Positions 1 through 47,442 of a DNA stretch of 64,000 nt are shown piece after piece. A program made the translations under genes and the position numbers. Position 1 is the first letter of the stretch; every line of letters starts with the position of its first letter. Below the pieces are notes generated by a model, which was not told the DNA's origin, did no database searches, and worked only from the letters and a program-made list of their open reading frames with translations. Source of the DNA: Platerodrilus igneus (Eukaryota; Arthropoda; Insecta; Coleoptera; Lycidae); assembly GCA_036346225.1 (NCBI GenBank), contig JARFIW010000139.1, forward strand, positions 2,852,001-2,916,000, read 5' to 3'.

Positions 1-160
1 TGACGAAATAAACAAAGGATGGATTACTGGTTCAGAAGCATCCGAAATCTACAATGTTCCAAAAGCTACACTCTATACGAAACTCAGATCAAAAGAAAAT
101 CGTGTGCAAAATTTGGATATGTATACTACACATTTGCCAATTAAAAGGAGGAAAAAGTGA
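1..160 (+). CDS. Pipsqueak-type HTH protein, C-terminal part (copy 1, cut by window edge)
   Basis: The open frame starts at the window edge and ends at TGA 158-160, giving the last 52 residues. It matches the C-terminus of the complete minus-strand copy at 10034-10468. It holds the second half of an HTH_psq-like domain (GWITGSEASEIYNVPKATLY) and a basic tail ending KRRKK. HTH_psq domains bind DNA in pipsqueak and CENP-B-like proteins and are common in transposable elements. Here it may regulate the element or bind its termini, which is inference. The rest of the gene lies left of the window. Confidence 0.75.
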   Translation, partial: DEINKGWITGSEASEIYNVPKATLYTKLRSKENRVQNLDMYTTHLPIKRRKK

Positions 161-164
161 CTTT

Positions 165-183
165 TGTGTGTGTGTGTGTGTGT
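165..183. repeat. (TG)n microsatellite in 3' UTR
   Basis: A short TG run lies directly after the stop codon of the HTH gene. The same run, as (CA)n, follows the stop of the mirror copy at about 10013-10028. Confidence 0.9.
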
Positions 184-624
184 ATTAGTTTTAATGAATA
201 AAAATATATTTCTATGTGAAGTGTACCTGTTAAGTATTTGAATTGAAATATAAATATTGTTTCAAACGTTTTGGGTTTTATTTATATATAATGGTATTGT
301 TAGGATACAATTACTCGGAAGCAGTAGCAGAATCTTGGTTTATGTAATATCATAGAAGTTGAAAAAAAACAAAAAACTAAAAGGTATGTTTCAAACACGT
401 AGTTGTACTCATTTCTATTAAAATTAAATGTAGCGCTCTTTGTTATAATTCTTTTCATAAGAACTTAGATACCCATTTCAGTTGCGTGGACATTTGAAAA
501 ATTAAACAATACCAATGTATGCTTTATATTTTAAAACATAAACAAGCTAATATATACAAAAATAATTTCTAAATTCACATCATTCATTTCTTATGATAAC
601 AGTTGTTGTGGTTAAATTTTTATT
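184..624. other. AT-rich intergenic region between convergent genes (copy 1)
   Basis: The HTH gene (+) and the small CxxC gene (-) converge here. The stretch holds AATAAA-like signals (AATAAA near 197) but no ORF or other structure I can support. It is duplicated at about 9573-10010. Confidence 0.5.
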
Positions 625-885
625 TTAAAACTTACAATTTAGTATATATTCCATTTGAATATCTGCCAACAGTTTTATAAACCCCATCTCCTCGATTATT
701 TCCATAAAATCATCCAGATCCTCAGGCATTGCTAACACAGCAGTACAGTGCCGTATTGCTTCCTCGTATGACTGACACATAAGACATTTTTCTCCTTCTA
801 TCGAAAAGCATTGCCCACATTCTGCTTTTTTTACTCGTAGAGCATTGCGAAATCTTCGAATAACCTCTCCAAAGTCTTTATACAT
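625..885 (-). CDS. Small CxxC...CxxC putative zinc-binding protein (copy 1, better preserved)
   Basis: This is an 86-residue ORF with an ATG start at 885-883. Residues 23-26 and 34-37 are two CxxC pairs (CGQC and CLMC), the usual spacing of a small zinc ribbon or knuckle. A largely acidic, leucine-rich C-terminal half follows. A TATA box lies about 65 nt upstream at 949-957. I do not recognise the family. In the mirror copy (9315-9572) run-length changes shift the frame across the first CxxC pair, so only this copy keeps both. A short zinc protein near a packaging ATPase would suit a virus-like element, but its role is unknown. Confidence 0.55.
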   Translation of the reverse strand: MYKDFGEVIRRFRNALRVKKAECGQCFSIEGEKCLMCQSYEEAIRHCTAVLAMPEDLDDFMEIIEEMGFIKLLADIQMEYILNCKF

Positions 886-948
886 ATTTGTTATATTGTC
901 TCTTTAAACCGTACAATCAACAAATAATAACTTCTACGCGAACAGTCC

Positions 949-957
949 TTTTATATG
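949..957 (-). promoter_or_regulatory. TATA box of the small CxxC gene (copy 1)
   Basis: The minus strand reads CATATAAAAGG about 65 nt before the start codon. The mirror copy has CATATAAAGG, one A shorter. Confidence 0.6.
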
Positions 958-1212
958 AGCTACTCCTATTCGGATATGTACCGATTGCACCCGATTTGTG
1001 TGCACGCACGAAGCAACAGGTAGGGAATGTATTCTATGAACAAAATCATTACATTTCTTAAGAAAAATGCTAAGGACTTTAAAAATAATTATAACTCTTG
1101 TTAGACCTCTAGCCTCCGGATAAACGTTATTATTTTAGGTTGTGTCACTGTTTTCTGAATCAACTTCCTACACACTTTTCCTAAACTATGCGTATCAATT
1201 GGGGGTTATACT

Positions 1213-1560
1213 TTACTCCATAACCGACTTGTATATATCTTCGTATTCGTCTCTAGCTAACACGTCCGTATAATAAAGATGTACAGGCTCGTCGTCAACT
1301 GGTAACTTAATCTTTTTTTAAAAAACTAGTCTTTGTTTTCAAGTTTAACCCTTGTTGTACGTGTAAGGATTCTTTCCGCTATTCCTTGTGACTAGGAATC
1401 GGTAATTTTGCAAGGGATCAATCAATTGTTTGTGCACCTCTTCGATTTGTAGAGATGTAGCGTCTCCCTTTTTGTATACCGCAAAGTTCTTTCGTACAGA
1501 ATCCTGCATAAAATGAAGCTTACGTTTATTTACAATAAAATTGTTAACGTTCGTCATCAT
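1213..1560 (-). pseudogene. Unidentified short gene downstream of the ATPase (copy 1, broken)
   Basis: An open stretch from 1560 to 1345 (71 residues, basic, with a KQLIDPL motif near the middle) is followed in another frame by a short acidic C-terminal stretch ending at 1213-1215. The two may be one gene broken by a frameshift in a T/A run near 1313-1321. It follows the ATPase in the same orientation, so the two may share a transcript. I do not recognise the family. The position beside the ATPase suggests a structural or assembly protein in Polinton-like elements, by inference only. Confidence 0.4.
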
Positions 1561-1595
1561 GAAACTTTGGATGAGAACTAACTTTTTGAATAATG

Positions 1596-2472
1596 TTAAA
1601 CATTTATATACTCGTCGAAATTCTTCCTATATCGACCATTATCCAAATCAAAATCTTTCACAACAGTTATAAAATTATGTTTTGAGTCACCCCAACACTG
1701 TAAACACATTTCTTTAAATTTCGGATATGTCATGTCACCACTTATATGATCCGAAAAGATATGTCCGAGATTGGTTTCATCCTGTTTCCATAATGCGATT
1801 ACATTGGCGTTATCTCTGAGTCTATGTTTTAAGGCACTAGCGTAAGTTTGACATAGATAGAACGAATCTATTGCTTTATGTCGACCGAACGAGAAAAACT
1901 GTGTGATTTTACTTTGCTCGTTTGCAGGTATATCATCGAAAACCATAATTGAATCTTCTTTGGTATCTCCGGGTTCAATCAAATCATCGTAATTTTCAAA
2001 CTCATGGTACCCAATTTCTTCTTTTAATGGTGTAAAACGTTTCTTAACAATTCGTATTTCGGTTGATACAAACTCTTCGAAAATACATAGACATTTTGAA
2101 ATCTAAGACCGTTCTCGTGCAAGATCAGAGATATTAAAGCGTTGGTCTTCCCACAACTCGATGGTCCCACGAATATAGCTCGTATGTTAGACGGGAACAA
2201 AGGACCATGTTTACCATCCTCTTTTGCATTAGCAATAGCAAAGTTATCATAATTCTGTATAGGTATTTTAACTTCTGGTATAACATCTCTGGATGCATCG
2301 TTGGAATTATGTAATTTCTTCACGTTCTGCAACCTTTAACATATCTGCATAACGTTGTTCTAGGTACATTATATTTTTTACTAGCAGCGTAGAAACTCGA
2401 GCCATACAGGATATCCTCTGCTGCTTTTGTAATAGATTGTTTGGAGCACCACTGATTGCTTGAATGCGACAT
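1596..2472 (-). pseudogene. HTH + FtsK/A32-type packaging ATPase (copy 1, broken)
   Basis: This is the mirror copy of 7727-8604; see that entry for domains. The start codon is at 2472-2470. It has two breaks. A 3-A run near 2336 (4 A in the right copy) shifts the frame just after the HTH domain. A second break near 2015-2024, shared with the right copy, separates the Walker A part (2332-2024) from the Walker B part (1982-1596). Sharing the second break means it predates the duplication, or that the frame is read through in some way. The HTH break is unique to this copy. Confidence 0.7.
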
Positions 2473-2519
2473 CTTTTGAAAAATGTCTTACTATAACTAA
2501 GCTCAACCCAAAACTAGTT

Positions 2520-2529
2520 CCTTATATAC
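2520..2529 (-). promoter_or_regulatory. TATA box of ATPase gene (copy 1)
   Basis: The minus strand reads GGTATATAAG about 50 nt upstream of the ATPase start. It lies between the start and the E-box array, as in the right copy. Confidence 0.6.
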
Positions 2530-2548
2530 CAAATTTAATCTCCCTGCT

Positions 2549-2741
2549 CACATAACCACATGACCATATGACCATATGACCACATGACCACATGACCATA
2601 TGACCACATGACCACATGACCATATGACCACATGACCACATGACCATATGACCACATGACCATATGACCACATGACCACATGACCATATGACCACATGAC
2701 CACATGACCATATGACCACATGACCACATGACCATATGACC
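2549..2741. repeat. 24 x 8-bp tandem array of E-box-like sites (copy 1)
   Basis: This 193-bp array is built from 8-bp units TCATATGG and TCATGTGG (complement on this strand), mostly in a 24-bp higher-order pattern. Each unit contains CATATG or CATGTG, which fit the CANNTG E-box. It lies between the terminal hairpin and the ATPase TATA box and is the same length as the right-hand array. Confidence 0.9.
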
Positions 2742-2848
2742 TAATTGCTTTTTAATGAGTTTTCTCATTAAAAACCCGTTAGCACTAATTGCTTTTTAAT
2801 GAGTTTTTCCATTGAAAACCAAGTGTGGACCTAGGTTAGATAAAAGGA

Positions 2849-2900
2849 AAAATTAATAGGTTAGGTCAGCGCCGCGGCGCTGACCTAACCTATTAATTTT
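2849..2900. repeat. Terminal palindrome (hairpin) of virus-like element, copy 1
   Basis: A 52-bp perfect palindrome is centred at 2874/2875 with the GC-rich core GCGCCGCGGCGC. The copy-2 hairpin is 70 bp, so 9 bp of the inner side are missing here, where the MULE remnant abuts. The flanks contain GGTTAGG, reminiscent of the insect TTAGG telomere unit, which may be chance. Confidence 0.9.
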
Positions 2901-3810
2901 GAGTCATTTGGGTTTCCTTCTACACCTTGGCTTTTATAATATAACATTGGGCAGTCGCTTCCTAAGTTCATCATCTCCTGTACCCAGAGCCGTACGCTAA
3001 TTGCATCATTTAGGTGACGTTTCACACCATACTCAATATTGAAGTCCCTAAAAATATTGTGCATATCTTTTGTTTCTAACAACAAAATGCAATTTCTGCT
3101 TTACTCTCTTTACTTAAAAAAACTCAACCAATATCGTTGGTATGTCCAACATGAGTTGTCCAGAAGTCTACTGCAACAGACCCATCGTTCTTTATCGTCG
3201 CTTCCATTCTTGAGGGACAAACACTTCCAATTTTATTAGTGCCTGTGCTTTTTAAGCTTCTAAAACCCTTGCCTTTTGGAATGTAGTTGTACGATCGATG
3301 GCAATTATAGTACTCCTTTTTGGTGCCATCAGACAATAATTTAGTTGAAGTGTTAAGTATATACATTGCCAAAGATTATTCATGTTCTTGGTTTTTCCAG
3401 TTTTTGAACTCTGTTGAACAGAATAAAATTAGTATATAATTAACACTTTGCATAATAATCTTCAAACCTAATTGTGAATTAAAATGTAGTTGATCAAGTT
3501 TAGTTTCAATTTGATGTTCATTTGCCAAATGTTGTCGAAGTTTTTTATATCCCTTTAGATGTGTTGTACAATTTTCATAAAAGCACTTAATTCTTGACGA
3601 GTTGAGAATTATTGAAATACTTTTATGAACAGTTCTGCAACGACGACGTAAAGTTGCTTTACTGGTCAAGGATTTGCCACATGTATCACACAAAAATTTA
3701 CTAGTTAAAGTAACTGGTTTCCTATATTCAAAATTATGAATCTTTCTTAAATGGGCATACAAATTCTTCTTTTGTGTAAACTCAAAACCACAATCTTCGC
3801 AAGAATTCAT
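2901..3810 (-). pseudogene. MULE-like (C2H2 + FAR1-type) transposase, N-terminal remnant
   Basis: Reading leftward from ATG 3810, a 144-residue ORF carries C2H2-like fingers (CEDCGFEF near residue 4, CDTCGKS near 42, CFYENC near 76; the middle one lacks a normal first His). A TAA at 3378-3376 interrupts the frame. The same frame then continues with a FAR1-like block (YYNCHRSY, KSTGTNKIG, HVGHTND), and after another break with RDFNIEYG and KRHLNDAISV. This order matches insect MULE-type transposase or SWIM-zinc-finger ORFs, from memory of the family. The DDE and SWIM parts are absent because the gene stops at the left hairpin. It is non-functional. Confidence 0.7.
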
Positions 3811-4729
3811 TTTTACACCTCGTTTACAACTAACACGATAAACAAAATTAATAGGTAATTTCCATGGATCTCATTCACTATATGTAAACAAAAAAAATTA
3901 CGTAACCTCAATCTGTTAACAACTGTCATTACAGCCGCGTTATTTCTACCGCGAGACGCTCGTTTAATTAAAGTTACCGTTTAAAAATTTTGTATGTTGG
4001 CAGTTTGAGTTCTGGTAAATAGTTATTAACCAGACATATGAACTACTGAGGTTATATTCTTCTTCTTCGTTCTTGTTGGCCTTCAGCTGGGAAGCAAGCA
4101 GCTACCGTGATTTAGTTGGATTTCAGTGGTATGTACAGGAAAGGGTGTACCTTTAATGAGTGCGTCTAGTTCATCTCATGCCCTCGCTTTTCTTCACTAG
4201 TTGTATTTCCTGGATGCTCAGGGTGTGGGAATGTATAAGATCTTAAGGGTAGTAAATAAGGAATCTGCAAACGGATTAAATTTTTAGATTACTTGCTCTT
4301 ACAAACGCCATAACTATTTTAATTACAGTTCATGCGGTTGGACTGTTACTGCAAGCAGGTATATGGGTTCATTAGGAAAATTTACAAGGTGATCGTATAA
4401 AACCCTACAGTGAATTATGTTGTTAGAACATGCAAATAATATGATTTAAATAACCCACTTCTCCGCAGGAGTACTTGTTCAAAATGCCAATCTTGCGAGG
4501 TGGCTTGGTGTACACTACAGCAATGTTGTGACTTGATCCAGCATATTGTTGCGAGTTACTATTAGGCAACCCGTCAAACACACAAGCGCCGTAGGTTCTG
4601 CATAGTCTCCAGGATTCGAGAATTCTTCTAGCAATCAAACACACAAAACGCCGCCAGCACTGTTTATTCTCAATGGACCGGGAAGCTTCTCGTAATTACT
4701 GGAGGATGAGTCGTATCTTTTATTCAGAG
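3811..4729. other. Spacer without recognisable genes
   Basis: Nothing supportable was found. The 4075-4250 part is less AT-rich and looks like decayed repeat. The minus-strand ORF 4423-4644 has no recognisable motif. Confidence 0.4.
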
Positions 4730-4777
<48 letters not shown>

Positions 4778-4787
4778 TATATATATA
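4730..4787. repeat. (TA)n tract
   Basis: An impure AT/TA dinucleotide run of about 58 nt with occasional AAA interruptions. The LTR-like sequence starts directly after it. Confidence 0.95.
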
Positions 4788-4994
4788 AGACCGCTAATAA
4801 ATGCAAGGGTCAGTCGATACCAGAATGACTAATATAAATTATATCGTGTAACGTTCAATAGTATACATAAATGTTATATTAAGTGCACGTGTCTAATGTA
4901 CATGCAGCTTGTAGAATACATAAATAGAAGTGTAATAAATAAATAGTTGTGTTAGTGTTGTTAATAAACCTATGGTTAAGAAGTTAGTTTAAGA

Positions 4995-5166
4995 AGATAT
5001 TAGTGCTTGTAAATTCATTAGTGTAATAGTGCTTCATTGTTAAGTGGACTGAAACATCTACAAATAAGGCATATACTGTTAATTAGACTTGTGAACAGTG
5101 AGTAATAAAGACTCTTGTTATTACTTGTTTAAAATTAGAAAAACGCGGTAGTAGTAGCCCGCTTCA
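4995..5166 (+). repeat. Direct repeat: end of 5' LTR
   Basis: 172 bp, about 97% identical to 5439-5611 by eye. The differences are small indels and A/G changes near the GAAAC and AGAAAAAC stretches. It ends immediately before the PBS-like CTGGTGTCAG. Confidence 0.85.
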
Positions 5167-5243
5167 CTGGTGTCAGTTGTGTGATTAATTTAAAAGAAAA
5201 ACAAAACAAAATACAAGTCCAAAGACATTTAAGTAGTTTATAT

Positions 5244-5447
5244 ATGCCAGTTACAAGAAGTCAAAGTAAGATGGACGCAGAAACGTTAATGAATCACCTA
5301 AAGGATTTTAAATCCAGTATGGAAGAGAGGTCGGCTAAACTGGAGGTGACACTAAATAAAAACGTAGTGAGGGCAGTTGAACTGGAATCAAACCTTACCG
5401 AAAAGTTTAGTGAAAATGTTAAGAAAATGGAAAAGTTGAGATATTAG
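5244..5447 (+). pseudogene. Gag-like N-terminal fragment
   Basis: An ORF from ATG 5244 begins MPVTRSQSK, a start often seen in gag proteins of insect LTR elements. A charged, coiled-coil-like stretch of about 55 residues follows. It runs into LTR sequence at 5439 and stops, so it is a truncated, non-functional fragment. Confidence 0.5.
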
Positions 5448-5611
5448 TGCTTGTAAATTCATTAGTGTAATAGTGCTTCATTGTTAAGTGGACTGAAAAC
5501 TTCTACAAATAAGGCATATACTGTTAATTAGACTTGTGAACAGTGAGTAATAAAGACTCTTGTTATTACTTGTTTTAAATTAGAGAAACGCGGTAGTAGT
5601 AGCCCGCTTCA
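5439..5611 (+). repeat. Direct repeat: end of 3' LTR
   Basis: Second copy of 4995-5166. It begins at the internal-deletion junction and ends ...GCTTCA, followed by ATATAG. Confidence 0.85.
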
Positions 5612-6253
5612 ATATAGTAGTCATATTACCTCTTGTTAAATTTTTGATGTTTTTAAACCATGGAGTTTGTAGAGGCTCGTTGGACCCTTTTTAGTTTGTT
5701 TGTGCTTTCCATTTCTCAATCCACATTTTGCTGATTTGCTTTTTCGAAAGTAGCGTTAGTTCATGGTGTTCAACTTTAGGGTTCACGGAGAAAAGGTTGT
5801 GTATTGGGTTTTTTGCTAGGGCTATTGTATTGCCCCCAATTGAAGTGTGGCTTGGGGTTCACATTAAGACGATTTTAAACCTTTCCTCTTTAATTGATTA
5901 AACAACTTAGTGAAAGATGTTCTTACAGATCTGCTTTTCTGACACTTCTCCATATTGAATGTTACGAAAAAAAACCGTTCTGTCACGGTCGTCAAATGTG
6001 AGAACTGCTTCGCTTTGTCTTCAATGTTCCAGTGTAAGAAACGATCGATGTAAATAAGAATCTTTATTAACTCAAAACACAATACCAATATCCTCTTTAC
6101 AATGGAAAAGCAAAAGCATAAACTGACTGACAAATAGCAAACTTGACAACTTTTTATTATGAGATACTAAACCTACTCTCATTTTAAAATAGACAATTTG
6201 AATAAGTGTTTTTCACAGTAGCAACTGCAGTCTTGCATAATATTGCAATAGAC
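5612..6253. other. No recognised gene
   Basis: A minus-strand open stretch at 5864-6133 has a serine- and lysine-rich C-terminus that could be a retroelement gag relic, but no diagnostic motif is visible. Confidence 0.3.
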
Positions 6254-6843
6254 ATGAATGAAAGTATACCTCATAAATGGTTAGAGGATGATTTACCAGA
6301 ATTGCACAACAAAGACGGTGTTAATTTAGGACCGCAATTTAGATAATTATTAATTAAGCAACACTTTGCATGTCTAATGTGATGTATTATGGAAAGGTTT
6401 CATTTCAAAAAAAGAAATCAACAATTATGTATTATATAAAAGATATAATGTATGAATCAACGGATCTAGGATCCTATGTGGTTATGATTGAAAAAGGATA
6501 AAACACTGAAAAATATCATCCAATGGCAATGGGAGAAACTTTAGCTAACGCCAACATAGAAGGAATTAGAAAGATAAAAACAAGGCATTAACAAAATCTC
6601 CAGCGAATTTATAACTTCAGAAGCAGCAAACACATTCTTAAAAAACGAACAAATGCAAAAAATAGAATATAAACGCATTATTCCGGTGAATATGATTACA
6701 TGTAAGGGTCTTGGAAGGGGAATTTATAAGGACATAACGAAAAAAAAACTCCTTAAATACACTAAATCTAAATATCAAATACTGGCTGCCAGAAGGTCTT
6801 ACGGTTTCCCGCGTTTCATAATATTGCGCAATCGTTTACTATA
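6254..6843 (+). pseudogene. Jockey-type LINE ORF1 (nucleic-acid-binding) remnant
   Basis: Starting near ATG 6254, broken frames contain LGSYVVMIEKG, YHPMAMGETLANANIEGI, NKISSEFITSEAANTFL and IIPVNMITCKGLGRGI, in that order. This series resembles the RRM-like ORF1 protein of insect jockey/X-element-type LINEs, which coats the retrotransposon RNA. The last part (6653-6841) is open. There are several stops and shifts, and no zinc knuckles or ORF2 follow. The sequence ends before 6850, so it is an old truncated copy. Confidence 0.6.
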
Positions 6844-7289
6844 ACATGATTACGCGGCAAATTACGCGACAATTGTATCAAATACCAAACACGTTAAAAT
6901 GATACAATTCTCAATTTACAATATAAATAAAGCAATGTACTCACTTAAATCGCAACTTAGATATATCCCAGGGCCATCTCTTTGTGGATCCATCACGCCG
7001 TCGTTGAGCCAGATTTATTCGTCCATTCTCCTTTCTTGCTCGTAGGTAGGGCAAGAAAGATACAGGCAGAGGTACGATTAGGCAAGATAAAATACGGGTA
7101 CCTACATCTTAAAAAAAGAGAAAAGATACACCACGACACAGGTAGCTGTTCTCGGCTTCAGGCCTCGTAATCTAATCGCTAATGACGTCGTATCACACAC
7201 CACACACTTGCGCCATTCACTCCGCGTCTGCGCATTTTTTTGCGCAAACGCAACTGTCCGGAATAACGGAAATTAACACGTTTATTTGA
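6844..7289. other. Spacer between LINE remnant and right hairpin
   Basis: No gene is seen. A GC-richer part at 7175-7260 contains GCGCATTTTTTTGCGC, a short hairpin. Confidence 0.4.
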
Positions 7290-7359
7290 ATAAAAGGAAA
7301 AATTAATAGGTTAGGTCAGCGCCGCGGCGCTGACCTAACCTATTAATTTTTCCTTTTAT
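7290..7359. repeat. Terminal palindrome (hairpin), copy 2
   Basis: A perfect 70-bp palindrome (35-bp arms, no loop) is centred at 7324/7325. The core is GCGCCGCGGCGC, the flanks are TGACCTAACC and its complement, and the outer part is AT-rich. I checked base pairing position by position; it fails first at 7289/7360. Self-complementary ends of this kind are typical of hairpin-ended linear genomes such as parvoviruses and bidnaviruses and are not what I expect at a Polinton terminus. Confidence 0.95.
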
Positions 7360-7391
7360 CTAACCTAGGTCCACACTTGGTTTTCAATGGA

Positions 7392-7457
7392 AAAACTCAT
7401 TAAAAAGCAATTAGTGCTAACGGGTTTTTAATGAGAAAACTCATTAAAAAGCAATTA
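7392..7457. repeat. 22-bp direct repeats with embedded stem-loop next to the terminus
   Basis: AAAACTCATTAAAAAGCAAT plus TA occurs at 7392-7413 and 7436-7457. The interval forms a stem-loop with an 11-bp stem (TTTTTAATGAG, 7425-7435, with 7440-7450) and an AAAA loop. The position between hairpin and iterons would suit a replication or packaging signal, by inference. The left arm has the same structure at about 2742-2808. Confidence 0.8.
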
Positions 7458-7650
7458 GGTCATATGGTCATGTGGTCATGTGGTCATATGGTCATGTGGT
7501 CATGTGGTCATATGGTCATGTGGTCATGTGGTCATATGGTCATGTGGTCATATGGTCATGTGGTCATGTGGTCATATGGTCATGTGGTCATGTGGTCATA
7601 TGGTCATGTGGTCATGTGGTCATATGGTCATATGGTCATGTGGTTATGTG
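7458..7650. repeat. 24 x 8-bp tandem array of E-box-like sites (copy 2)
   Basis: Units are GGTCATAT and GGTCATGT, largely in the order AT, GT, GT (24 bp). Each unit border creates CATATG or CATGTG. The array ends 20 bp before the TATA box of the ATPase gene. It opens a spurious repetitive reading frame, which I do not treat as coding. Confidence 0.9.
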
Positions 7651-7668
7651 AGCAGGGAGATTAAATTT

Positions 7669-7680
7669 GGTATATAAGGA
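7669..7680 (+). promoter_or_regulatory. TATA box of ATPase gene (copy 2)
   Basis: GGTATATAAGGA lies 47 nt before ATG 7727, directly downstream of the E-box array. Confidence 0.65.
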
Positions 7681-7726
7681 ACTAGTTTTGGGTTGAGCTT
7701 AGTTATAGTAAGACATTTTTCAAAAG

Positions 7727-8604
7727 ATGTCGCATTCAAGCAATCAGTGGTGCTCCAAACAATCTATTACAAAAGCAGCAGAGGATATCCTGTATGGCTC
7801 GAGTTTCTACGCTGCTAGTAAAAAATATAATGTACCTAGAACAACGTTATGCAGATATGTTAAAAGGTTGCAGAACGTGAAGAAATTACATAATTCCAAC
7901 GATGCATCCAGAGATGTTATACCAGAAGTTAAAATACCTATACAGAATTATGATAACTTTGCTATTGCTAATGCAAAAGAGGATGGTAAACATGGTCCTT
8001 TGTTCCCGTCTAACATACGAGCTATATTCGTGGGACCATCGAGTTGTGGGAAGACCAACGCTTTAATATCTCTGATCTTGCACGAGAACGGTCTTAGATT
8101 TCAAAATGTCTATGTATTTTCGAAGAGTTTGTATCAACCGAAATACGAATTGTTAAGAAACGTTTTACACCATTAAAAGAAGAAATTGGGTACCATGAGT
8201 TTGAAAATTACGATGATTTGATTGAACCCGGAGATACCAAAGAAGATTCAATTATGGTTTTCGATGATATACCTGCAAACGAGCAAAGTAAAATCACACA
8301 GTTTTTCTCGTTCGGTCGACATAAAGCAATAGATTCGTTCTATCTATGTCAAACTTACGCTAGTGCCTTAAAACATAGACTCAGAGATAACGCCAATGTA
8401 ATCGCATTATGGAAACAGGATGAAACCAATCTCGGACATATCTTTTCGGATCATATAAGTGGTGACATGACATATCCGAAATTTAAAGAAATGTGTTTAC
8501 AGTGTTGGGGTGACTCAAAACATAATTTTATAACTGTTGTGAAAGATTTTGATTTGGATAATGGTCGATATAGGAAGAATTTCGACGAGTATATAAATGT
8601 TTAA
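7727..8604 (+). pseudogene. Pipsqueak-like HTH fused to FtsK/A32-type packaging ATPase (copy 2)
   Basis: The first open part (7727-8176) has an HTH at residues 13-50 (ITKAAEDIL, NVPRTTLCRYVKR), then an acidic linker, then Walker A GPSSCGKT at about residues 109-116. The second part (open to 8604) is in another frame and has Walker B SIMVFDDI, FSFGRHK, and a C-terminal WKQDETNLGHIF...MTYPKFKEMC...GRYRKNF series. Together they match the genome-packaging ATPases of Polintons, adintoviruses and related DNA viruses (HerA/FtsK superfamily). The break lies near 8150-8165, in ...TTGTTAAGAAACG, and is present in both arms. The N-terminal HTH keeps its frame only in this copy. Packaging ATPases normally lack such a domain. 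Confidence 0.75.
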
Positions 8605-8641
8605 CATTATTCAAAAAAAGTTAGTTCTCATCCAAAGTTTC

Positions 8642-8989
8642 ATGATGACGAACGTTAACAATTTTATTGTAAATAAACGTAAGCTTCATTTTATGCAGGA
8701 TTCTGTACGAAAGAACTTTGCGGTATACAAAAAGGGAGACGCTACATCTCTACAAATCGAAGAGGTGCACAAACAATTGATTGATCCCTTGCAAAATTAC
8801 CGATTCCTAGTCACAAGGAATAGCGGAAAGAATCCTTACACGTACAACAAGGGTTAAACTTGAAAACAAAGACTAGTTTTTTAAAAAAAGATTAAGTTAC
8901 CAGTTGACGACGAGCCTGTACATCTTTATTATACGGACGTGTTAGCTAGAGACGAATACGAAGATATATACAAGTCGGTTATGGAGTAA
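8642..8989 (+). pseudogene. Unidentified short gene downstream of the ATPase (copy 2, broken)
   Basis: The ORF from ATG 8642 to 8857 codes for 71 residues, basic at the N-terminus. An acidic C-terminal piece (VDDEPVHLYYTDVLARDEY) is open in another frame up to TAA 8987. A 7-A run at 8880-8890 lies between them. Upstream, an alternative in-frame start at 8597 overlaps the ATPase end; it depends on a run of 7 A (5 in the left arm), so the true N-terminus is uncertain. Family not recognised. The place next to the ATPase suggests a virion-assembly or structural role, by inference. Confidence 0.4.
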
Positions 8990-9243
8990 AGTATAACCCC
9001 CAATTGATACGCATAGTTTAGGAAAAGTGTGTAGGAAGTTGATTCAGAAAACAGTGACACAACCTAAAATAATAACGTTTATCCGGAGGCTAGAGGTCTA
9101 ACAAGAGTTATAATTATTTTTAAAGTCCTTAGCATTTTCTTAAGAAATGTAATGATTTTGTTCATAGAATACATTCCCTACCTGTTGCTTCGTGCGTGCA
9201 CACAAATCGGGTGCAATCGGTACATATCCGAATAGGAGTAGCT
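8990..9243. other. Intergenic region upstream of small CxxC gene
   Basis: No ORF is seen. The 9180-9240 part is richer in G+C (GCGTGCACAC, ATCGGGTGCAATCGG) and may hold promoter elements. Confidence 0.4.
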
Positions 9244-9253
9244 CATATAAAGG
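9244..9253 (+). promoter_or_regulatory. TATA box of the small CxxC gene (copy 2)
   Basis: CATATAAAGG lies 62 nt before ATG 9315, followed by the purine-rich leader AAAGAGACAATATAACAA. Confidence 0.65.
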
Positions 9254-9314
9254 ACTGTTCGCGTAGAAGTTATTATTTGTTGATTGTACGGTTTAAAGAG
9301 ACAATATAACAAAT

Positions 9315-9572
9315 ATGTATAAAGACTTTGGAGAGGTTATTCGAAGATTTCGCAATGCTCTACGAGTAAAAAGCAGAATGTGGGCAATGCTTTTCGATAG
9401 AAGGAGAAAATGTCTTATGTGTCAGTCATACGAGGAAGCAATACGGCACTGTACTGCTGTGTTAGCAATGCCTGAGGATCTGGATGATTTTATGGAAATA
9501 ATCGAGGAGATGGGGTTTATAAAACTGTTGGCAGATATTCAAATGGAATATATACTAAATTGTAAGTTTTAA
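9315..9572 (+). pseudogene. Small CxxC protein (copy 2, frame disturbed inside zinc motif)
   Basis: 85 residues. It is identical to copy 1 (625-885) except in residues about 20-32. Two A-run length changes (5 versus 7 A at 9367, 4 versus 5 A at 9406) put this stretch in another frame, removing the first CxxC while keeping the second. The net change is one codon, so the ORF stays open. It is probably a damaged copy, or one carrying sequencing errors in homopolymers. Confidence 0.5.
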
Positions 9573-10033
9573 AATAAAAATTTAACCACAACAACTGTTA
9601 TCATAAGAAATGAATGATGTGAATTTAGAAATTATTTTGTATATATTAGCTTGTTTATGTTTTAAAATATAAAGCATACATTGGTATTGTTTAATTTTTC
9701 AAATGTCCACGCAACTGAAATGGGTATCTAAGTTCTTATGAAAAGAATTATAACAAAGAGCGCTACATTTAATTTTAATAGAAATGAGTACAACTACGTG
9801 TTTGAAACATACCTTTTAGTTTTTTGTTTTTTTTCAACTTCTATGATATTACATAAACCAAGATTCTGCTACTGCTTCCGAGTAATTGTATCCTAACAAT
9901 ACCATTATATATAAATAAAACCCAAAACGTTTGAAACAATATTTATATTTCAATTCAAATACTTAACAGGTACACTTCACATAGAAATATATTTTTATTC
10001 ATTAAAACTAATACACACACACACACACAAAAG
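9573..10033. other. Intergenic region between convergent genes (copy 2)
   Basis: Mirror of 160-624. AT-rich, with a (CA)n run at about 10013-10028. No gene is seen. Confidence 0.5.
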
Positions 10034-10468
10034 TCACTTTTTCCTCCTTTTAATTGGCAAATGTGTAGTATACATATCCAAATTTTGCACACGATTTTCT
10101 TTTGATCTGAGTTTCGTATAGAGTGTAGCTTTTGGAACATTGTAGATTTCGGATGCTTCTGAACCAGTAATCCATCCTTTGTTTATTTCGTCAAGGGCTT
10201 TATTTAAATCCTCTTTAGTATACGATTTAAGTTGTCTCTTTCTTTTTCTGTCAGAAACGTCTGACTTGGAGTCTATGTTCTGATCTTTCGCATCAACATT
10301 ATCATGTGTAGGTTTATCTTGCACTATTTTAGTATTTACCAGAGATTCATTAGACATACCATTCAAATGTTGGCTAGTTGAATTGTTTGATAAACTTGTT
10401 TTCATCTCCTTGACAACTTCTTCTAAAATTTTTATAGCATCTAAGGATATAATTCTTTCCCCGCTCAT
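10034..10468 (-). CDS. Pipsqueak-type HTH DNA-binding protein (copy 2, complete)
   Basis: This is an intact 144-residue ORF from ATG 10468-10466 to a stop at 10034. Residues 1-75 are polar and probably disordered (Ser/Asn/Asp-rich, with a KRKR cluster near 75-80 that could act as a nuclear localisation signal). Residues 83-125 form an HTH_psq-like domain (SYTKEDLNKALDEINKG, then EASEIYNVPKATLY). The tail ends in KRRKK. Pipsqueak HTH domains bind DNA. A TATA-like TATTTATACAT lies about 70 nt upstream at 10536-10546. It is divergent from the polymerase region to its right and convergent with the CxxC gene. It is probably a DNA-binding regulator of the element. Confidence 0.75.
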   Translation of the reverse strand: MSGERIISLDAIKILEEVVKEMKTSLSNNSTSQHLNGMSNESLVNTKIVQDKPTHDNVDAKDQNIDSKSDVSDRKRKRQLKSYTKEDLNKALDEINKGWITGSEASEIYNVPKATLYTKLRSKENRVQNLDMYTTHLPIKRRKK

Positions 10469-10535
10469 TTTTATTACGATGTTTACTTATCAAAATGCAA
10501 ATGCAGACTATTCCAATTTCACAATTTCGAAAAAT

Positions 10536-10546
10536 ATGTATAAATA
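10536..10546 (-). promoter_or_regulatory. TATA-like box of HTH gene
   Basis: The minus strand reads TATTTATACAT about 70 nt before the start codon, a spacing like that of the element's other genes. Confidence 0.45.
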
Positions 10547-10911
10547 TTTACCCCGTCTAACTTTGTTCTCGTTTGATACATCCGATAATTATAGATGTAG
10601 CGCGTAAGCAAGAAGTTAATTGATTTTCACCGACGTGAATAGACTGGTATGAAATGTTACTCAAGGTTAAACGACGCTGGGTTTCTCCTAATTTAAAAGT
10701 AAACTACCTAATTAGTGGCTACACCAAGATGGACAGTGTAGAGGATGTTAAATCTTTCAACACTGAAATGTTGTGCTCACCTCCTCCAGTAACCTAGGGA
10801 GATCTACAATTCCTTTGTGGAGAGGATGTTAGCTAAGTCAGAGGAGTTCCAAGAACGAGATTCTGGTTAGTTTCTACAATAATTTATTTTTCTAATTTTT
10901 AAATTTTAGGA
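10547..10911. other. Region between HTH gene and polymerase remnant
   Basis: No intact ORF is seen. A polypyrimidine tract ending TTTTAG (about 10895-10908) immediately precedes the polymerase-like frame and could be a splice acceptor or simply decayed coding sequence. Confidence 0.35.
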
Positions 10912-11303
10912 TGGACTCTGAAACAGGCGTTGTACTTGGAGATTAATGTAAACAAGTACAACCCTTTGCGTGGATCCTCATACATCGAGCTCCCCAAATG
11001 GGTTCGAAACACCAGAGCTGTTATTAATATACAAAATGACGACAACGCATGCTTTGCCTGGTGCGTGATAGCTGCGCTCTACTCAGTGCTCACAATCCGC
11101 AAAGGGTCGGTAGCTACCCCCATTACAGCACCATTCTCAATTTGACAGGACTGCAGTTCCCGATATCCATAAAGGATATACACCGGTTCGAGGAATTAAA
11201 CAACATCAGTGTCAACGTGTTTGGGGTGGAAAGGAAGTCGATTGTGGGACACACCAGGGATTTATCTCAAAAGACAGAGCGATACGGTTTAGAAATAGAT
11301 TAA
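10912..11303 (+). pseudogene. Polinton-type DNA polymerase B, N-terminal region remnant
   Basis: Two overlapping frames hold successive blocks: NPLRGSSYIELPKWV, RAVINIQNDDNACFAWCV, then in a second frame FPISIKDIHRFEELNNISVN. This series is the hallmark N-terminal part of the large insect ORFs that continue into a protein-primed DNA polymerase B (Polinton/adintovirus type), from memory of that family. A frameshift near 11090-11110 divides it. No exonuclease or polymerase catalytic motifs follow; the frame ends at 11303. A C-terminal block appears at 12653. The central polymerase is absent from this copy. Confidence 0.65.
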
Positions 11304-11305
11304 AG

Positions 11306-11533
11306 ATGAATTATATACGGTGCTTGCAAAAGGTTATTCTGCAAATCAGTAAGGTGTCATTCGATTTGGAAAAATTCCGAGGATTTGAAAACCTGAGGAA
11401 AAACACAATAATAATTGAAATCTTACACGATGGTATATTAAAAATACTGCTAAGAGTAATTTTGTTTAATAATTCTAAAATGGCGTTGGTGGTTAAATAC
11501 ATACAGGTAAAACCCACTATAAAACAATTATAG
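11306..11533 (+). CDS. Unrecognised small ORF
   Basis: A 75-residue open frame, rich in Ile, Leu and Lys, following directly on the polymerase N-terminal remnant. No motif or homology is recognised. It could be decayed polymerase sequence or chance in AT-rich DNA. Confidence 0.2.
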   Translation: MNYIRCLQKVILQISKVSFDLEKFRGFENLRKNTIIIEILHDGILKILLRVILFNNSKMALVVKYIQVKPTIKQL

Positions 11534-11608
11534 ACGTCACTTTTCCAGTCAAGACTTGCATATAACGCCAACTAATATAATAAGGAGCTGCGCACGCTCG
11601 ACCATCGG

Positions 11609-11645
11609 CATAAAAGGCGAGAGCCATGTTCCAGTGCATTAGTCG
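11609..11645 (+). promoter_or_regulatory. Promoter of the 11686 gene (TATA + initiator-like)
   Basis: CATAAAAGGCG at 11609 is followed about 27 nt later by GCATTAGTCG, close to an arthropod initiator. The ATG of the next ORF is at 11686. Confidence 0.5.
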
Positions 11646-11685
11646 TCAAAGTATCATCGAGTTTGATTAAAATTATAAATAAAAG

Positions 11686-12087
11686 ATGGATTTTTCTTGT
11701 GTTGACGTTACAAGTGATGTGCGAGTACCACAATTAAATATCAACCAACTAGTTGGTAAGTCAACCTATAGGTTAGGCGAATTTCCTCCAAATTATCACC
11801 ACCATATATTAGAAGTTGGTTTTGATTTATATGGTGGTCTTCAACCTGCCATCCAAGTGATTTGCTGTAGTGGTATGTGTGCTGATTCTACGATAACATT
11901 CTCTTACTTCGATTGGAAGAAATTGTGTACTTTTCAATTGGAATTTCAAATTCACCAATTTGCTCAAGACTCAAAACAAGTACGATTAAATGATCTGACT
12001 ACTGGAAACGATGTTGTTGACATACAATTGGATCAAGATTTCAAATTGCAGCTGAGCACAGCCTTTAATAGAAGTATATGGTTTTAG
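11686..12087 (+). CDS. Unknown small protein of the virus-like element
   Basis: An intact 133-residue ORF with a clear promoter upstream and an AATAAAAG leader just before ATG 11686. It has several aromatic and Cys residues (ICCSGMC near residue 63), HHH near residue 43, and alternating hydrophobic stretches suggesting a beta-rich fold. There is no signal peptide or membrane segment. The family is not recognised. It lies between the N- and C-terminal pieces of the polymerase, the place of a missing core, and is one of the few unbroken genes here. Confidence 0.5.
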   Translation: MDFSCVDVTSDVRVPQLNINQLVGKSTYRLGEFPPNYHHHILEVGFDLYGGLQPAIQVICCSGMCADSTITFSYFDWKKLCTFQLEFQIHQFAQDSKQVRLNDLTTGNDVVDIQLDQDFKLQLSTAFNRSIWF

Positions 12088-12116
12088 AACAATTTTGAAA
12101 AGAGAATTTATATAAT

Positions 12117-12512
12117 ATGGAGATTACGAAAGATGGGAATGTTATTGTGCTACCTGCGTACGAGTGCATCAAGCTATTAAATTTGCGAGAATTGATCTGT
12201 TTTATAATGGTTGAGTTAAGGTGTTGAAACTTTCCAGAATTTTACGAAAAATTTGTTGGTGATATAAAAAAAGTATGTGGAAATACGACGGAGGAAGAAA
12301 GGGTTCAAACGTTATTAGAGGGAGAGAGCAGTGCCAGTATTTCTCTGTCAAATGATTGCAGCAATTTAAATTACTTGACAGTGTTGGAACTTATTAAATG
12401 TTTCCCCATTCAGTACTTAAAAGATGCAACTGCAAGGCAATCGGTTGCGCAAATGTTTAGAGATTTGGATATCCCAGATTCGCCAGACTCTGGTTACCAC
12501 AGCGGTTTATAG
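12117..12512 (+). pseudogene. Unknown small protein with an in-frame TGA
   Basis: ATG 12117 opens a frame that reads through 36 codons to TGA 12225-12227, then stays open in the same frame for another 94 codons to TAG 12510. The part after TGA has a coherent composition (NFPEFYEKFVGDIKK..., a Ser/Asp-rich middle, SPDSGYHSG near the end), so this looks like one 131-codon gene with a single stop. TGA could replace TGG (Trp). It starts 30 nt after the preceding ORF, so the two may be co-transcribed. Family not recognised. Confidence 0.5.
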
Positions 12513-12652
12513 ATGTTATCAATACATGTATGTATTCTATTAAAACATATTTCTTGATAAAGTTTGTTTTTACATATTTGTATCGCCAACATTACCATAA
12601 ATTATTAATAGACGTATTAAACTATCCTGTTTTTATTTTTTAGGTTTAAAGT

Positions 12653-13103
12653 GGTGTACGCGGAAATAATAAACACAATATACCGCATGTTAACAAAAAG
12701 TTGTGGGGGAAATTTAAAGACGAGTTTAACGGTGACTTGGTGTTAGAATTTGTAGGTAGTAAGGCTAAGTCCTACTGTATTGTACGCGAGAAGGACACGA
12801 TTAAAAAGATTAAAGGGATCTCTCAAAGTGTAGTTAAGTAAAACCGTGGGTGCTACAACCTATAACGAGCATATACCTCAAAAGGAATGGACATGCAACT
12901 ACGTAGCAGTGCGTGGGAGAATAAGAATTCTCTCTAATAAGAAATTAAAGTCATTGGGAAATGGTCGAAATGTGGAACCTATAAAGGCGATTATTAATTA
13001 TGGTTTACTGACCGCGTTTGTGCACTCTTCGAGTGTCTTCGGTAATCTTCGATTGTTTCCAAAGCATGCCATTTTCGAAAAATATGGCGTAGAAGTTATT
13101 TAA
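12653..13103 (+). pseudogene. Polinton-type DNA polymerase B, C-terminal region remnant
   Basis: The frame from 12653 to TAA 12839 contains LWGKFKDEFNGD, LEFVGSKAKSY and IKGISQSVVK, matching the conserved C-terminal block (FKDE.....EFVGLR.K.Y......KGV...VVK) of Polinton and insect-virus polymerase B proteins. A different frame (12846-13103) carries TYNEHI and further sequence that may be the true C-terminus. Catalytic motifs A to C are missing upstream. Together with 10912-11303 this shows a polymerase gene that has lost its middle, or had other genes inserted into it. Confidence 0.65.
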
Positions 13104-13735
13104 AATTAAATTGCTTTATTAGTAAGTATTCTGTATACAACAAGTTCGGTGTTCCCTTAGCAAAGTGTTTATTTAAAATTTGTATCCTGCAATTATTAAT
13201 CAATTTCTAATACACAAACATAATTAATAGAAAGTCCAAGAAAAGAAATTATATACAGTTTTCACATGTGATTCACATGCTCGTTAAGAAATTGATTTGA
13301 AACGACTTGTATTTTCCAAGCATTTAGCATTGAGCATATCTATTGTATTTTTCAAATCACATAGCTGCTAATTAATAAAAAGAAAGGCTACTTTCACTTT
13401 ACGTAACATAATTGTAAAGCAATTAGTTTGTCCTCTATACTACTTTCACTATACGTCACATAATTGTAAAGCGATTAGTTTGTTCTTGTCTATGTATTTT
13501 CCAACAATTTAGCATTGTACATGTAATTATGTTAAAACCAGAAAAAATTTTAAGTCATGGGTTTTTGCGACATTCTGAGAGAAGCACATTACTGTTTGAA
13601 AAAATGATTTTAAATACTAAGCACTTATGGCTTATAAAGGACTCGTTTCTAAAATCCTTGCGGTTTTAGATTTCTAGGGAAATAGTTGGTTAAAGCATAT
13701 GTCATAGACGAGCAAAACAATTTAAAGTGGTTTGG
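13104..13735. other. AT-rich region with no gene
   Basis: A partial internal repeat is visible: CTACTTTCACTTTACGTAAC near 13388 and CTACTTTCACTATACGTCAC near 13439, each followed by ATAATTGTAAAGC. The right end of the virus-like element may lie here but I cannot see a second hairpin. Confidence 0.4.
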
Positions 13736-13823
13736 GGCCTTTAAAGGGTAACTTTGCAGGGCGTGATCCGATTTCCAATCTGTTTACAGATTTGGATTCT
13801 GCATAAAATTCTAAGCTAACAAG

Positions 13824-14067
13824 ATGTATCGCGTGACTAAAAAAGTTTATAAGAACGCTCAAAAGTCGCTACAGGTAAGAAATCTTAAAATGAGGGTAGC
13901 TCCCTTGGGGGTGATGCAATCATAAAAATTCCTGGAGATTCGGGTAGCTGAGAAAATTCTAATATTGATTGATACCAAACAAGATAGGTTTATCTCGAAA
14001 GATGCATTGGCTAGACAAAGAAAACTATTTGTTAGTTTTGCTTATAAAGCAAAGAGTAAAATTTAGA
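13824..14067 (+). pseudogene. Array ORF, copy 1 (stop at codon 34)
   Basis: Same as copy 2 except that TCAGAA has become TCATAA at about 13920, which stops the frame. Otherwise it stays in frame to the same terminal TAG. Confidence 0.6.
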
Positions 14068-14164
14068 AGATCAGGACTTTAAAGGGGTATAACTTTGCAG
14101 GGCGTGGTCCGATTTCAAATCAGTTTGCAGATTCAGATTCTGCATAAAATTCTAAGCTAACAAG

Positions 14165-14407
14165 ATGTATCGCGTGACTAAAAAAGTTTATAAGAACGCT
14201 CAAAAGTCGCTACAGGTAAGAAATCTTAAAATGAGGGTAGCTCCCTTGGGGGTGATGCAATCAGAAAAATTCCTAGAGATTCGGGTAGCTGAGAAAATTC
14301 TAATATTGATTGATACCAAACAAGATAGGTTTATCTCGAAAGATGCATTGGCTAGACAAAGAAAACTATTTGTTAGTTTTGCTTATAAAGCAAAGAGTAA
14401 AATTTAG
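14165..14407 (+). CDS. Array ORF, copy 2 (intact 80-residue basic protein)
   Basis: A Lys/Arg-rich protein starting MYRVTKKVYKNAQKS, with a central hydrophobic stretch (EKILILIDTKQDRF) and a basic C-terminus (KAKSKI). No family is recognised. Because the array is exact and the frame is kept in copies 2 and 3, it may have been coding, but it could also be repeated U3-type sequence of an LTR element. The nearby TATA and PBS-like motifs at 14968 and 15366 would fit that. Confidence 0.35.
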   Translation: MYRVTKKVYKNAQKSLQVRNLKMRVAPLGVMQSEKFLEIRVAEKILILIDTKQDRFISKDALARQRKLFVSFAYKAKSKI

Positions 14408-14505
14408 AAGATCAGGACTTTAAAGGGGTATAACTTTGCAAGGCGTGGCCCGATTTTAAATCAGTTTGCAGATTCGGATTCTGTGTAAAATTTTAGACTA
14501 ATTTA

Positions 14506-14730
14506 ATGTATCGCATGACTAAAAAAGTTTATAAGAATGCTCAAAAGTCGCTACAGGTAAGAAATCTTAAAATTGGGGTAGCTCCCTTGGGGGTGATGCA
14601 ATCAGAAAAATTCTTAGAGATTCGGGTAGCTGAGAAAATTCTAATATTGATTGATACCAAACAAGATAGGTTTATCTCGAAAGATGCAATGGCTAGACAA
14701 AGAAAACTATTTGGTTCAGATGAAAGATAA
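14506..14730 (+). CDS. Array ORF, copy 3 (diverged C-terminus)
   Basis: 74 residues, begins MYRMTKKVYKN. The last part changes to LFGSDER by a shift relative to copy 2. Degenerate RRKLFGSD repeats follow at 14740-14880. Confidence 0.3.
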   Translation: MYRMTKKVYKNAQKSLQVRNLKIGVAPLGVMQSEKFLEIRVAEKILILIDTKQDRFISKDAMARQRKLFGSDER

Positions 14731-14967
14731 AAAAATAGCTAGTCGAAGAAAACTTTTTGGTTCAGATGTGGGAGGAAATGAGGATGCTCATTTATCTCGA
14801 AACATAAAAAATTTAAGATATATTTATCTCGAAAGATGAAAAATGGTTAGTCGAAGAAAACTTTTTGGTCCAGATGTGTGGGGAAATGAGGGATTCTGGG
14901 GGAAATGAGGGGGCAGGATGCCTGATTTTACCCTACTAGTATTGCCTAAATGTATAGTTTTACATCA

Positions 14968-19029: not shown

Positions 19030-20906
19030 CTATTGCCTGTGGTAAGTCATGAAGCAACCTACACATAATTCAATGTTGCATTTTTTGCACTCCGTTCTTG
19101 CTTTTGTGTTGCACTTCGCACCTCCACATCGTCTTCTTTTTTGATCTGAAATCTTTTGAATGAAATGATCCAGCCGATCAAAACGCAAATCATCTGTATT
19201 TGTAAGCGAAGGATTTTTACCAGGACCCTTTGGTGGTGCAGCATATCTTCTAAGATAAACCTGAACTATTTTTCTGCGAAAATTTAGCTGTGTGATGTCT
19301 TGATTCTGTAATCGGTAAAGTTGCCATGCATTATTTATCGCTACATCTAAAAGCCATGTAAGTAGAGGCCAGTACCACTTTCTGTAACGAATATTTATGC
19401 GATATTGACTTACATTTTGGTCCATTCTGTCAGTGCCTCCCATGTAATTGTTGTACTCTGTAAGGACCGTTGGACGGGGAACATGGATGTGTTTTTTCGC
19501 TTGTTGAGAATACCGTTTTACGTTCGCAACAGGATTTATACCATAAAAATTAGATGCAGCACACACCACAGAATTATCATTCCACTTGCAAACAAGCAAC
19601 CCATCATCTTTGTCAATAACTGAATGAATAGTTCCTCTTCCTTTTTTTGACAATACAGTTTTTTTGGGTAGTGGACAGTTTCTGGGAATTTGATTTTCCC
19701 GTATTGTTCCGGTTCCGCCCTAGCCATGATTACGTAAGTGAATTAGCAAATTAAAACTTGTAAAGAGGTTATCAAAGTAGAAATGAAATGGTAAGCGCTT
19801 TATTTCAGGTGGCATATTGTCTATCATCTCCACAAGTGAAAATGTTGCTTTCCCAAAAGCCTTGCTTTTCTGAGAATTGTCTGTCGTAGATTTTCCCTGG
19901 TAAACATCAAAGTTCACTAAGTATCCACTGGAAGTGTTTAAAGACTACACTTTGTATCCAAAACGAATCGGTTTACCTCGAATAAATTGTTTGAGACTAT
20001 GCCTGCCAAAATATCGTACCATACTTTATCATAAGATAAATTCCTTTCAGGTTGAAAATTTTGTATAAATTTAGATTGCATATGGTGTATTAGAGGTCTG
20101 ATCTTCAACAGTTTATCTTTGTTGGTGGCACTGAAATTATTATTGTCGACACAGTGAAGAAATCGTAGAATAAGTTCAAATCTGTTTCTACGCATTGAAT
20201 TATAAACTATGTCATTGTGAGTGTCGCTGCAATTCTCCCAATAGTTTCTTTTTGAGGGCACCTGATTATAACCACTAAGAATTAGAATACCAATAAAATA
20301 TCTAATTTTGTCTTCGGTTATATTAGGATCAGGACAATTTGTGCATACTTGTTGGACTCAACAGCAAATAAACGGATGAGATTGTTATCGACAAATAATT
20401 GAAAAAATCTACTGCACTTAGAGCACCATGCGCAGGAATTTGTGGAAGAAAAACTGTTGTTTAAATGATTTAATATCTTCATCTATCCATACAAGTAGTT
20501 TTTCATGTTGAGGGTATGACACATTTGACTCTACCGTAGGTAATACTAAAATTGGTATTTTTTCTGAATTTGGAGTTGGATTAGCCTCTGGTTCAGGTAT
20601 CATTTCTTCACCATTTACAAATCTTATTTCTGCATCTGCAAGTAATTGTCGTTTGCTAAAATTGTCTGGAACTCCACCATCATCTTCATCACCAGAATCT
20701 TCGTCCGTCAAAAAATCAGAATCTGGTGGGGCAATATAAACACTATCTACATTATGCTCATCTTCCAATAAAATATCAAGAGCTTCTTGTACAGTAAACC
20801 CTGGAGCAAGACAATCTTGAAGTTCCTTCACGTCTCTGAAAAATGAATAGTGCAATAATAATAATACATAGGTCGTTTGTTGCGCTGTAGTATCTTGCAT
20901 CATCAT
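19030..20906 (-). pseudogene. piggyBac transposase, frameshifted
   Basis: Successive minus-strand frames cover the whole protein: an acidic N-terminus (20906-20418, DEDSGDEDDGG), the DDE_Tnp_1_7 core (20261-19938, MRRNRFELILRFLH, ending near the first catalytic Asp in LSYDK), FYFDNLFTS with the second Asp (about 19760), NNYMGGTDRMDQ with the third Asp (about 19430), and a C-terminal Cys-rich zinc domain (CGGAKC, CKKC, CVGC). Breaks: a run-length frameshift after LSYDK, an in-frame TAG shortly after, a shift near 19720, and gaps between the N-terminus and core. All three Asp are still visible, so it is a fairly recent pseudogene, or one whose homopolymer breaks are sequencing errors. Confidence 0.85.
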
Positions 20907-21036
20907 AATAATGCAAAGCTTTCACAATTAATTATCTATTTTACGTTTTTGTTCAGTACAGCAATTGAAAATAATATGTTTTTTAGGTAAGTAATCGAAT
21001 AATAAAGATGGTCAGAAATGCTGTTATTAGAGCTTA

Positions 21037-21056
21037 GTGTACCATTAATGGTACAC
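21037..21056. repeat. 20-bp perfect palindrome inside piggyBac
   Basis: GTGTACCATTAATGGTACAC is fully self-complementary. It lies about 375 bp inside the right end and may be a transposase- or host-protein-binding site, by inference. Confidence 0.8.
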
Positions 21057-47307: not shown

Positions 47308-47442
47308 AGTAGTGATTGTAATTAATTTCTTTTATGGTCTGACTGAAATTTAGATATTTTTAGTATGTATGTATGTTTATATATGTATGTTGATGTATGT
47401 CTATTTGTTTACGTATGTATTTTAGTGTGTTTATGTTGTTTG

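Follow-up and report, generated by a model that had tools for sequence, protein, structure and literature searches.

What kind of element carries virus-like genes, ends in perfect palindromes and sits in a genome as two copies facing each other head to head? The question is raised by a stretch of 64,000 nucleotides (hereafter, the window) from the beetle Platerodrilus igneus (assembly GCA_036346225.1, contig JARFIW010000139.1, positions 2,852,001 to 2,916,000), in which an earlier note, made from the sequence alone, had described two such copies and placed them near Polintons and adintoviruses, with inner termini resembling those of hairpin-ended linear genomes. The searched assembly comprises 2.71 Gb in 1,723 contigs, here labelled Cn, the window being C139:2852001-2916000, and it contains many copies of the element; nearly every copy examined is one of a pair joined palindrome end to palindrome end, two of these pairs having host DNA between their members. 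The element is probably a non-autonomous half-Polinton of about 7.6 kb whose two ends differ, R being of Polinton type and L a hairpin, and that integrates as head-to-head pairs.

The inner ends of the two window copies are perfect palindromes, exactly where the earlier note had located them: 52 bp at 2849-2900 for the L end of copy A (centre 2874/2875; outer arm of 26 bp, 2875-2900) and 70 bp at 7290-7359 for that of copy B (centre 7324/7325; outer arm of 35 bp, 7290-7324). Within the window, copies A (1-2900, minus strand) and B (7299-10193, plus strand) form an inverted repeat that aligns over 2,903 bp without any substitution. Most of the 11 gap bases fall in homopolymers, which suggests that they are partly sequence error. 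Comparison of copies also revealed the opposite terminus, whose identification the note had called for, and extended the element beyond position 13103, where the note had ended it. Copy B runs on the plus strand from its L centre at 7325 to 14937, spanning 7,613 bp and ending in the Polinton-type R terminus ...TTTTACCCTACT (14912-14937). Copy A, 7,623 bp long, has only its inner 2.9 kb in the window (1-2874, minus strand); the remainder lies to the left and ends in the same R terminus, TTTTACCCTACT, at C139:2847252, which is 4,749 bases before the start of the window.

Copy A, the intervening 4.4 kb and copy B make up a unit of 19.7 kb flanked by a single 6-bp target duplication, AGTATT (14938-14943, plus strand; its partner stands just left of the R end of copy A, outside the window). 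The three parts therefore entered as one piece, which rules out the two separate insertions that the note had entertained; its head-to-head pairing holds, with two L ends facing each other inside one unit. When the full 7.6-kb halves were compared, the first 4.0 kb proved free of substitutions, the following 2.0 kb contained 8 and the final 1.6 kb 145 (9%), indicating that, at least in the window unit, two molecules were paired.

The same R-bounded architecture, with L ends facing inwards, recurs elsewhere in the genome. Perfect 6-bp duplications flank all nine family units with both outer ends read (C139, C1366, C1051, C1096, C766, C935, C1253, C1588 and, by eye, C1209). Their outer ends read AGTAGGG...CCCTACT, AGT-type termini in inverted repeats, with a variant CTCTACT in C1051, C1209 and at one end of C1366; AGT-type ends and 6-bp duplications are also described for vertebrate Mavericks (PMC8097293). 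Ordinary Polinton ends with 6-bp duplications, which the note had set against a hairpin-ended element, do occur, but only at the outer ends, the inner ends being palindromic, so that every half combines a Polinton-type end with a palindromic one. Among the best 40 of 2,124 candidate R ends, there were at least eight outward-facing pairs 12.8-15.9 kb apart, five of them with their centres read, the other three being two on C89 and one on C1616. C1528 and C791 are rearranged pairs, and the centre of C1151 matches the half-element body over 138 bp only. This last unit, of 15.3 kb and bounded by the same R ends, also holds a RING-finger frame (Sina_RING, 3.2e-12).

Besides the two L-end palindromes and those formed by AT repeats, the window contains no perfect palindrome longer than 20 bp, and a single one of 20 bp at 21037; the palindrome core, GGTTAGGTCAGCGC, occurs four times in the window, as compared with a mean of 0.17 and a maximum of 1 in 100 shuffles. 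A tandem array of 8 bp (CACATGAC) stands beside the L end of each copy (2549-2741, minus strand, for A; 7458-7650, plus strand, for B). A first search gave 18 matches to the core at 11 loci, a partly circular result, the core itself being the query. Near the centre, one position holds either T or C, and we counted 49 mixed and 43 C/C centres genome-wide against none in the reversed control; two mixed-type centres lie only 368 bp apart (C1261:415379 and 415747). Wherever the centre is kept it falls at the same base step in all copies, except that five have lost one or two bases. The outer arms vary in length between 0 and at least 130 bp, with 13 of 33 measuring 29-35 bp. A palindromic terminus at a fixed centre, as in a hairpin-ended replicon, is thus present at many loci, with small variations in some copies, and bears out the hairpin-like inner ends of the note.

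We then have to ask what the L ends are joined to. In a sample of 41 L-side ends (the best 40 of 3,233 candidate places plus copy A, with 33 and 8 ends scored together), 32 were joined to an inverted and truncated family member, in most cases with a short palindromic arm in between. All 31 break positions that were placed, with several bodies serving as references, differ; those of C1253 and C170 come nearest to each other, at about 7 bp once the difference in reference is taken into account. At its centre, the part that was read, C1128 forms a head-to-head pair that is almost symmetric, with about 18 and about 118 bp missing. The two arms of a unit were nearly identical in six of seven units (mismatches 0/1395, 3/2136, 0/1484, 5/1151, 8/1907 and 0/1033). 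Junction overlaps, taken from BLAST alignments, averaged 2.1 nt in seven clean junctions, as compared with 0.75 expected (P 0.003), or 1.7 (P 0.014) when the two remaining junctions count as 0.

In two units, the L ends enclose DNA from elsewhere. The 4,389-bp filler of the window unit (2901-7289) has one other full-length match among the best 40 of 14,870 candidates, a 99% copy at C1442:93891-98298 (minus strand), and about 700 bp read on each side of this donor showed no match to the element. Likewise, the 2.0-kb filler of C1209 has one full-length 99% match among the best 40 of 2,080 candidates (C884:1354076-1356109), with no element sequence in about 300 bp on either side. Because the donors are full length, 99% identical and devoid of element flanks, we took both fillers as captured host DNA. 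By eye, the junctions overlap by TTTT and A in the window unit and by T and AGG in C1209, and all four L ends retain palindromic arms, of 26, 35, 17 and 51 bp. The window filler includes a very common repeat of about 0.9 kb (3088-3964), the whole filler having the 14,870 first-look candidates given above, and a C2H2 zinc-finger frame (3376-3810).

A full-type Polinton on C1357 serves for comparison. It is flanked by a 6-bp duplication, GATGTA, and has identical terminal inverted repeats (TIRs) of 382 bp, two stretches with matches to the double jelly-roll capsid model (8.8e-9 and 1.4e-19), a PolB match (3.5e-18) and weak protease-like and core-protein-like matches below the cut-off. Its R ends match those of the family, and its DNA is 93-97% identical to the half-element in the R-end region, 96% and then 87% in the ATPase part, and 78-79% in the polymerase remnants. 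Half-element body 1-588, containing the palindrome and the 8-bp array, had no match in six pieces of C1357 (about 12 of 15.4 kb), the matching place included. C1357 also carries a gene that fuses a helix-turn-helix (HTH) domain, HTH_psq, to the ATPase, so this fusion is not special to the half-element. PolB genes are common in this genome, with at least 115 matches in the best 87 of 6,269 candidates and more than 12 uninterrupted frames of over 1,000 aa. Kinship with Polintons, as proposed in the note, is borne out by the outer ends, the 6-bp duplications, the A32-type ATPase and the polymerase-region remnants.

From these structures we infer a free hairpin, a helper and an order of events. 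The free form would be linear, with a hairpin closing its L end, or else a head-to-head dimer of this molecule, and full Polintons would supply the polymerase and the integrase, for both of which the R end would still be usable. Protein-primed synthesis from R would proceed round the hairpin to yield an R...L|L...R duplex, and the displaced single strand of the dimer would fold back and regenerate the hairpin form; as this strand would anneal to itself, no resolvase would be needed. Two R ends, from either a dimer or a pair of hairpin molecules, would be joined by the integrase to a single target; a pair of molecules would leave the chromosome with two hairpin-capped ends. Opening of the hairpins, or of the palindromic centre, would occur off-centre, in many cases at 29-35 nt from the tip, which we propose as the cause of the short outer arms. 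The opened ends would use microhomology to join either a second, resected half or a captured piece of host DNA, and such end joining could account for the differing microhomologous junctions and for the host captures. In its most specific form, which we advance tentatively and at close to even chances, the element would have two unlike telomeres, one of Polinton type, protein-primed and recognised by the integrase, and one a hairpin: a single Polinton end would suffice because the hairpin makes each strand self-complementary, and integration would need two molecules, leave hairpin-capped breaks and capture host DNA.

The main rival is breakage at the centre of an integrated perfect dimer, which shares most of its predictions with the half-Polinton reading. 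An inverted-dimer genome, with no hairpin monomer, would integrate as a perfect palindrome of about 15 kb, and a subsequent break at the centre would be repaired with either asymmetric loss or host DNA. The fixed centre, differing breaks and microhomology all fit such a repair, as do the small central loss of C1128, the nearly perfect pair that C1608 may represent and the near identity of arms in six of seven units; however, the halves of the window unit, 9% apart over their last 1.6 kb, and those of C1366, whose R ends differ, are not the halves of one self-templated dimer, and we regard this explanation as unlikely, if by no means negligible. A polymerase that switched template near L and copied back to R would produce asymmetric genomes, like those of adeno-associated virus (AAV), that then integrate. 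Such snap-back synthesis would give one break near a fixed place and another that is free, with microhomology, and symmetric and asymmetric snap-back genomes do occur in AAV populations (PMC8235507). By itself, however, it explains neither the fixed palindrome centre nor two L ends around host DNA, which in the window come from two distinguishable molecules, and it appears improbable.

Two further explanations were rejected. The Polinton ends and 6-bp duplications would also be those of an ordinary Polinton with unusually long, variable TIRs and a merely internal palindrome, but the repeat length differs in every unit placed, DNA from another locus lies inside two units and the TIRs of C1357 are of an ordinary 382 bp, making this very improbable. 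An assembly artefact or chimeric reads, a concern of the earlier note to which the homopolymer indels, suggestive of raw long-read errors, lend some colour, is scarcely credible given paired duplications in nine of nine units, the same core at many loci (the 49 mixed and 43 C/C centres), junctions that differ and donors with unrelated flanks.

Several points weigh against the half-Polinton reading itself. Neither a free hairpin molecule nor reads or virions of it were observed, and off-centre opening could equally strike a perfect palindrome after integration. The putative helper is deduced from the shared R end. The sample of 41 L-side ends, by its selection, favours complete copies, and nine of the 41 have no inverted partner; four of these are host captures, and none was found for the L-side ends of C39, C824, C381 and C89. 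In the ninth, C998 (906051-909450), an L end with a 29-bp arm is followed by about 2.1 kb of non-element sequence and by another copy's R end in the wrong orientation. The outer side of C1608 is almost collinear with the body over the 250 bases read, with no break point, and this locus may hold a near-perfect pair. The centre is off by a base or two in C1209l, C99, C1658, C1667 and C965; the outer arm measures just 0-8 bp in C1034, C771, C156, C1310, C1006, C1010 and C39; and the L-side ends of C581, C170, C381 and C89 are cut before the centre. Finally, the seventh unit compared for its arms, C1366, has unlike ones (13 mismatches in 131).

With Polintons or Mavericks (Eupolintoviridae, adintoviruses) the half-element shares the outer end AGTAGGG.../...CCCTACT, the 6-bp duplication, the A32-type ATPase and the polymerase-region remnants. 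Unlike them, it has one Polinton end per half, a palindromic second end and head-to-head integrated pairs, and its scanned frames revealed neither a capsid nor an integrase gene. Among the matches listed, open-access titles and starts of abstracts, no Polinton, Maverick or adintovirus with this hairpin or palindrome arrangement is described, which is not proof of absence. Foldback-type transposons have long inverted repeats with arms of variable length; in the half-element, by contrast, no two of the placed breaks coincide, and the fixed palindromic end is usually retained on one side. Parvovirus genomes have hairpin ends. The palindromic end of the half-element resembles theirs and that of AAV, which forms asymmetric fold-back molecules (PMC8235507), but the half-element is Polinton-related, has a 6-bp duplication at its non-palindromic end and matched no parvovirus gene in the frames scanned. 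In origin-dependent inverted-repeat amplification (ODIRA), hairpin-capped DNA intermediates give inverted copies (PMC10766183); these arise from chromosomal loci, unlike the mobile element with a fixed centre found here. If true, our reading would link TIR-ended, protein-primed Polintons to parvovirus-like hairpin-ended genomes in one young, multicopy family and represent a minimal way to halve the end requirement of a linear replicon. It would also offer virus-like elements a natural route to acquire host DNA, by end joining at opened hairpins, and the dozens of junctions would provide a readable record of how hairpins are opened and palindromes repaired in an animal genome.

As for the gene content of the half-element, the HTH_psq/A32-type packaging ATPase gene (7727-8604, plus strand) has a broken frame in both window copies and an uninterrupted one in C1096, C766 and C1253. 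The window piece matched Pox_A32 at 1.1e-3, below the Pfam cut-off, and an uninterrupted relative did so at 1e-6, above it; 621 database relatives were found at E <= 0.001 among 624 candidates, the few named ones including a beetle and a fly, which, like the piggyBac-like and reverse-transcriptase-like frames of the window, points to an arthropod genome. These results uphold the packaging-type ATPase of the note, and Pfam confirmed its HTH genes as HTH_psq. A second HTH_psq gene (10034-10468, minus strand) occupies a cargo region (9759-11251) that varies by subfamily, with other frames in C766, C935 and C1253.

The polymerase B pieces reported in the note gave no Pfam PolB match, but two stretches resemble sequence beside the PolB domain of C1357: one (10736-11250, plus strand) is 78% identical in DNA to a piece upstream of that domain, and the other (12668-12817, plus strand) 79% identical to a piece downstream. 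The window element has only these broken remnants and no protein-primed PolB gene, in agreement with the incomplete polymerase of the note. Pieces of an uncharacterised gene (11686-12423, plus strand, with an approximate end) correspond to a single uninterrupted 249-aa frame in C1096; neither that protein nor the window piece had a homologue at E <= 0.001. The frames scanned with Pfam, which were not every frame, yielded no match to an integrase (for which no dedicated search was made), a double jelly-roll capsid (no fold being predicted for the 249-aa frame), a Rep-type nickase or a parvovirus capsid, so that the note's statement that no integrase or capsid gene was recognised holds for these frames. 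IMG/VR scans with the ATPase piece, the uncharacterised protein, the palindrome and two polymerase pieces gave no confirmed match, and a PHROGs search only weak ones.

Near the R end of copy B lies a tandem repeat of 341 bp in 2.8 copies (13749-14713, plus strand), with related sequence in C1357. Elsewhere in the window, we named by eye piggyBac-like transposase frames (19030-20921, minus strand) and Penelope-like reverse-transcriptase frames in both orientations (46927-48343).

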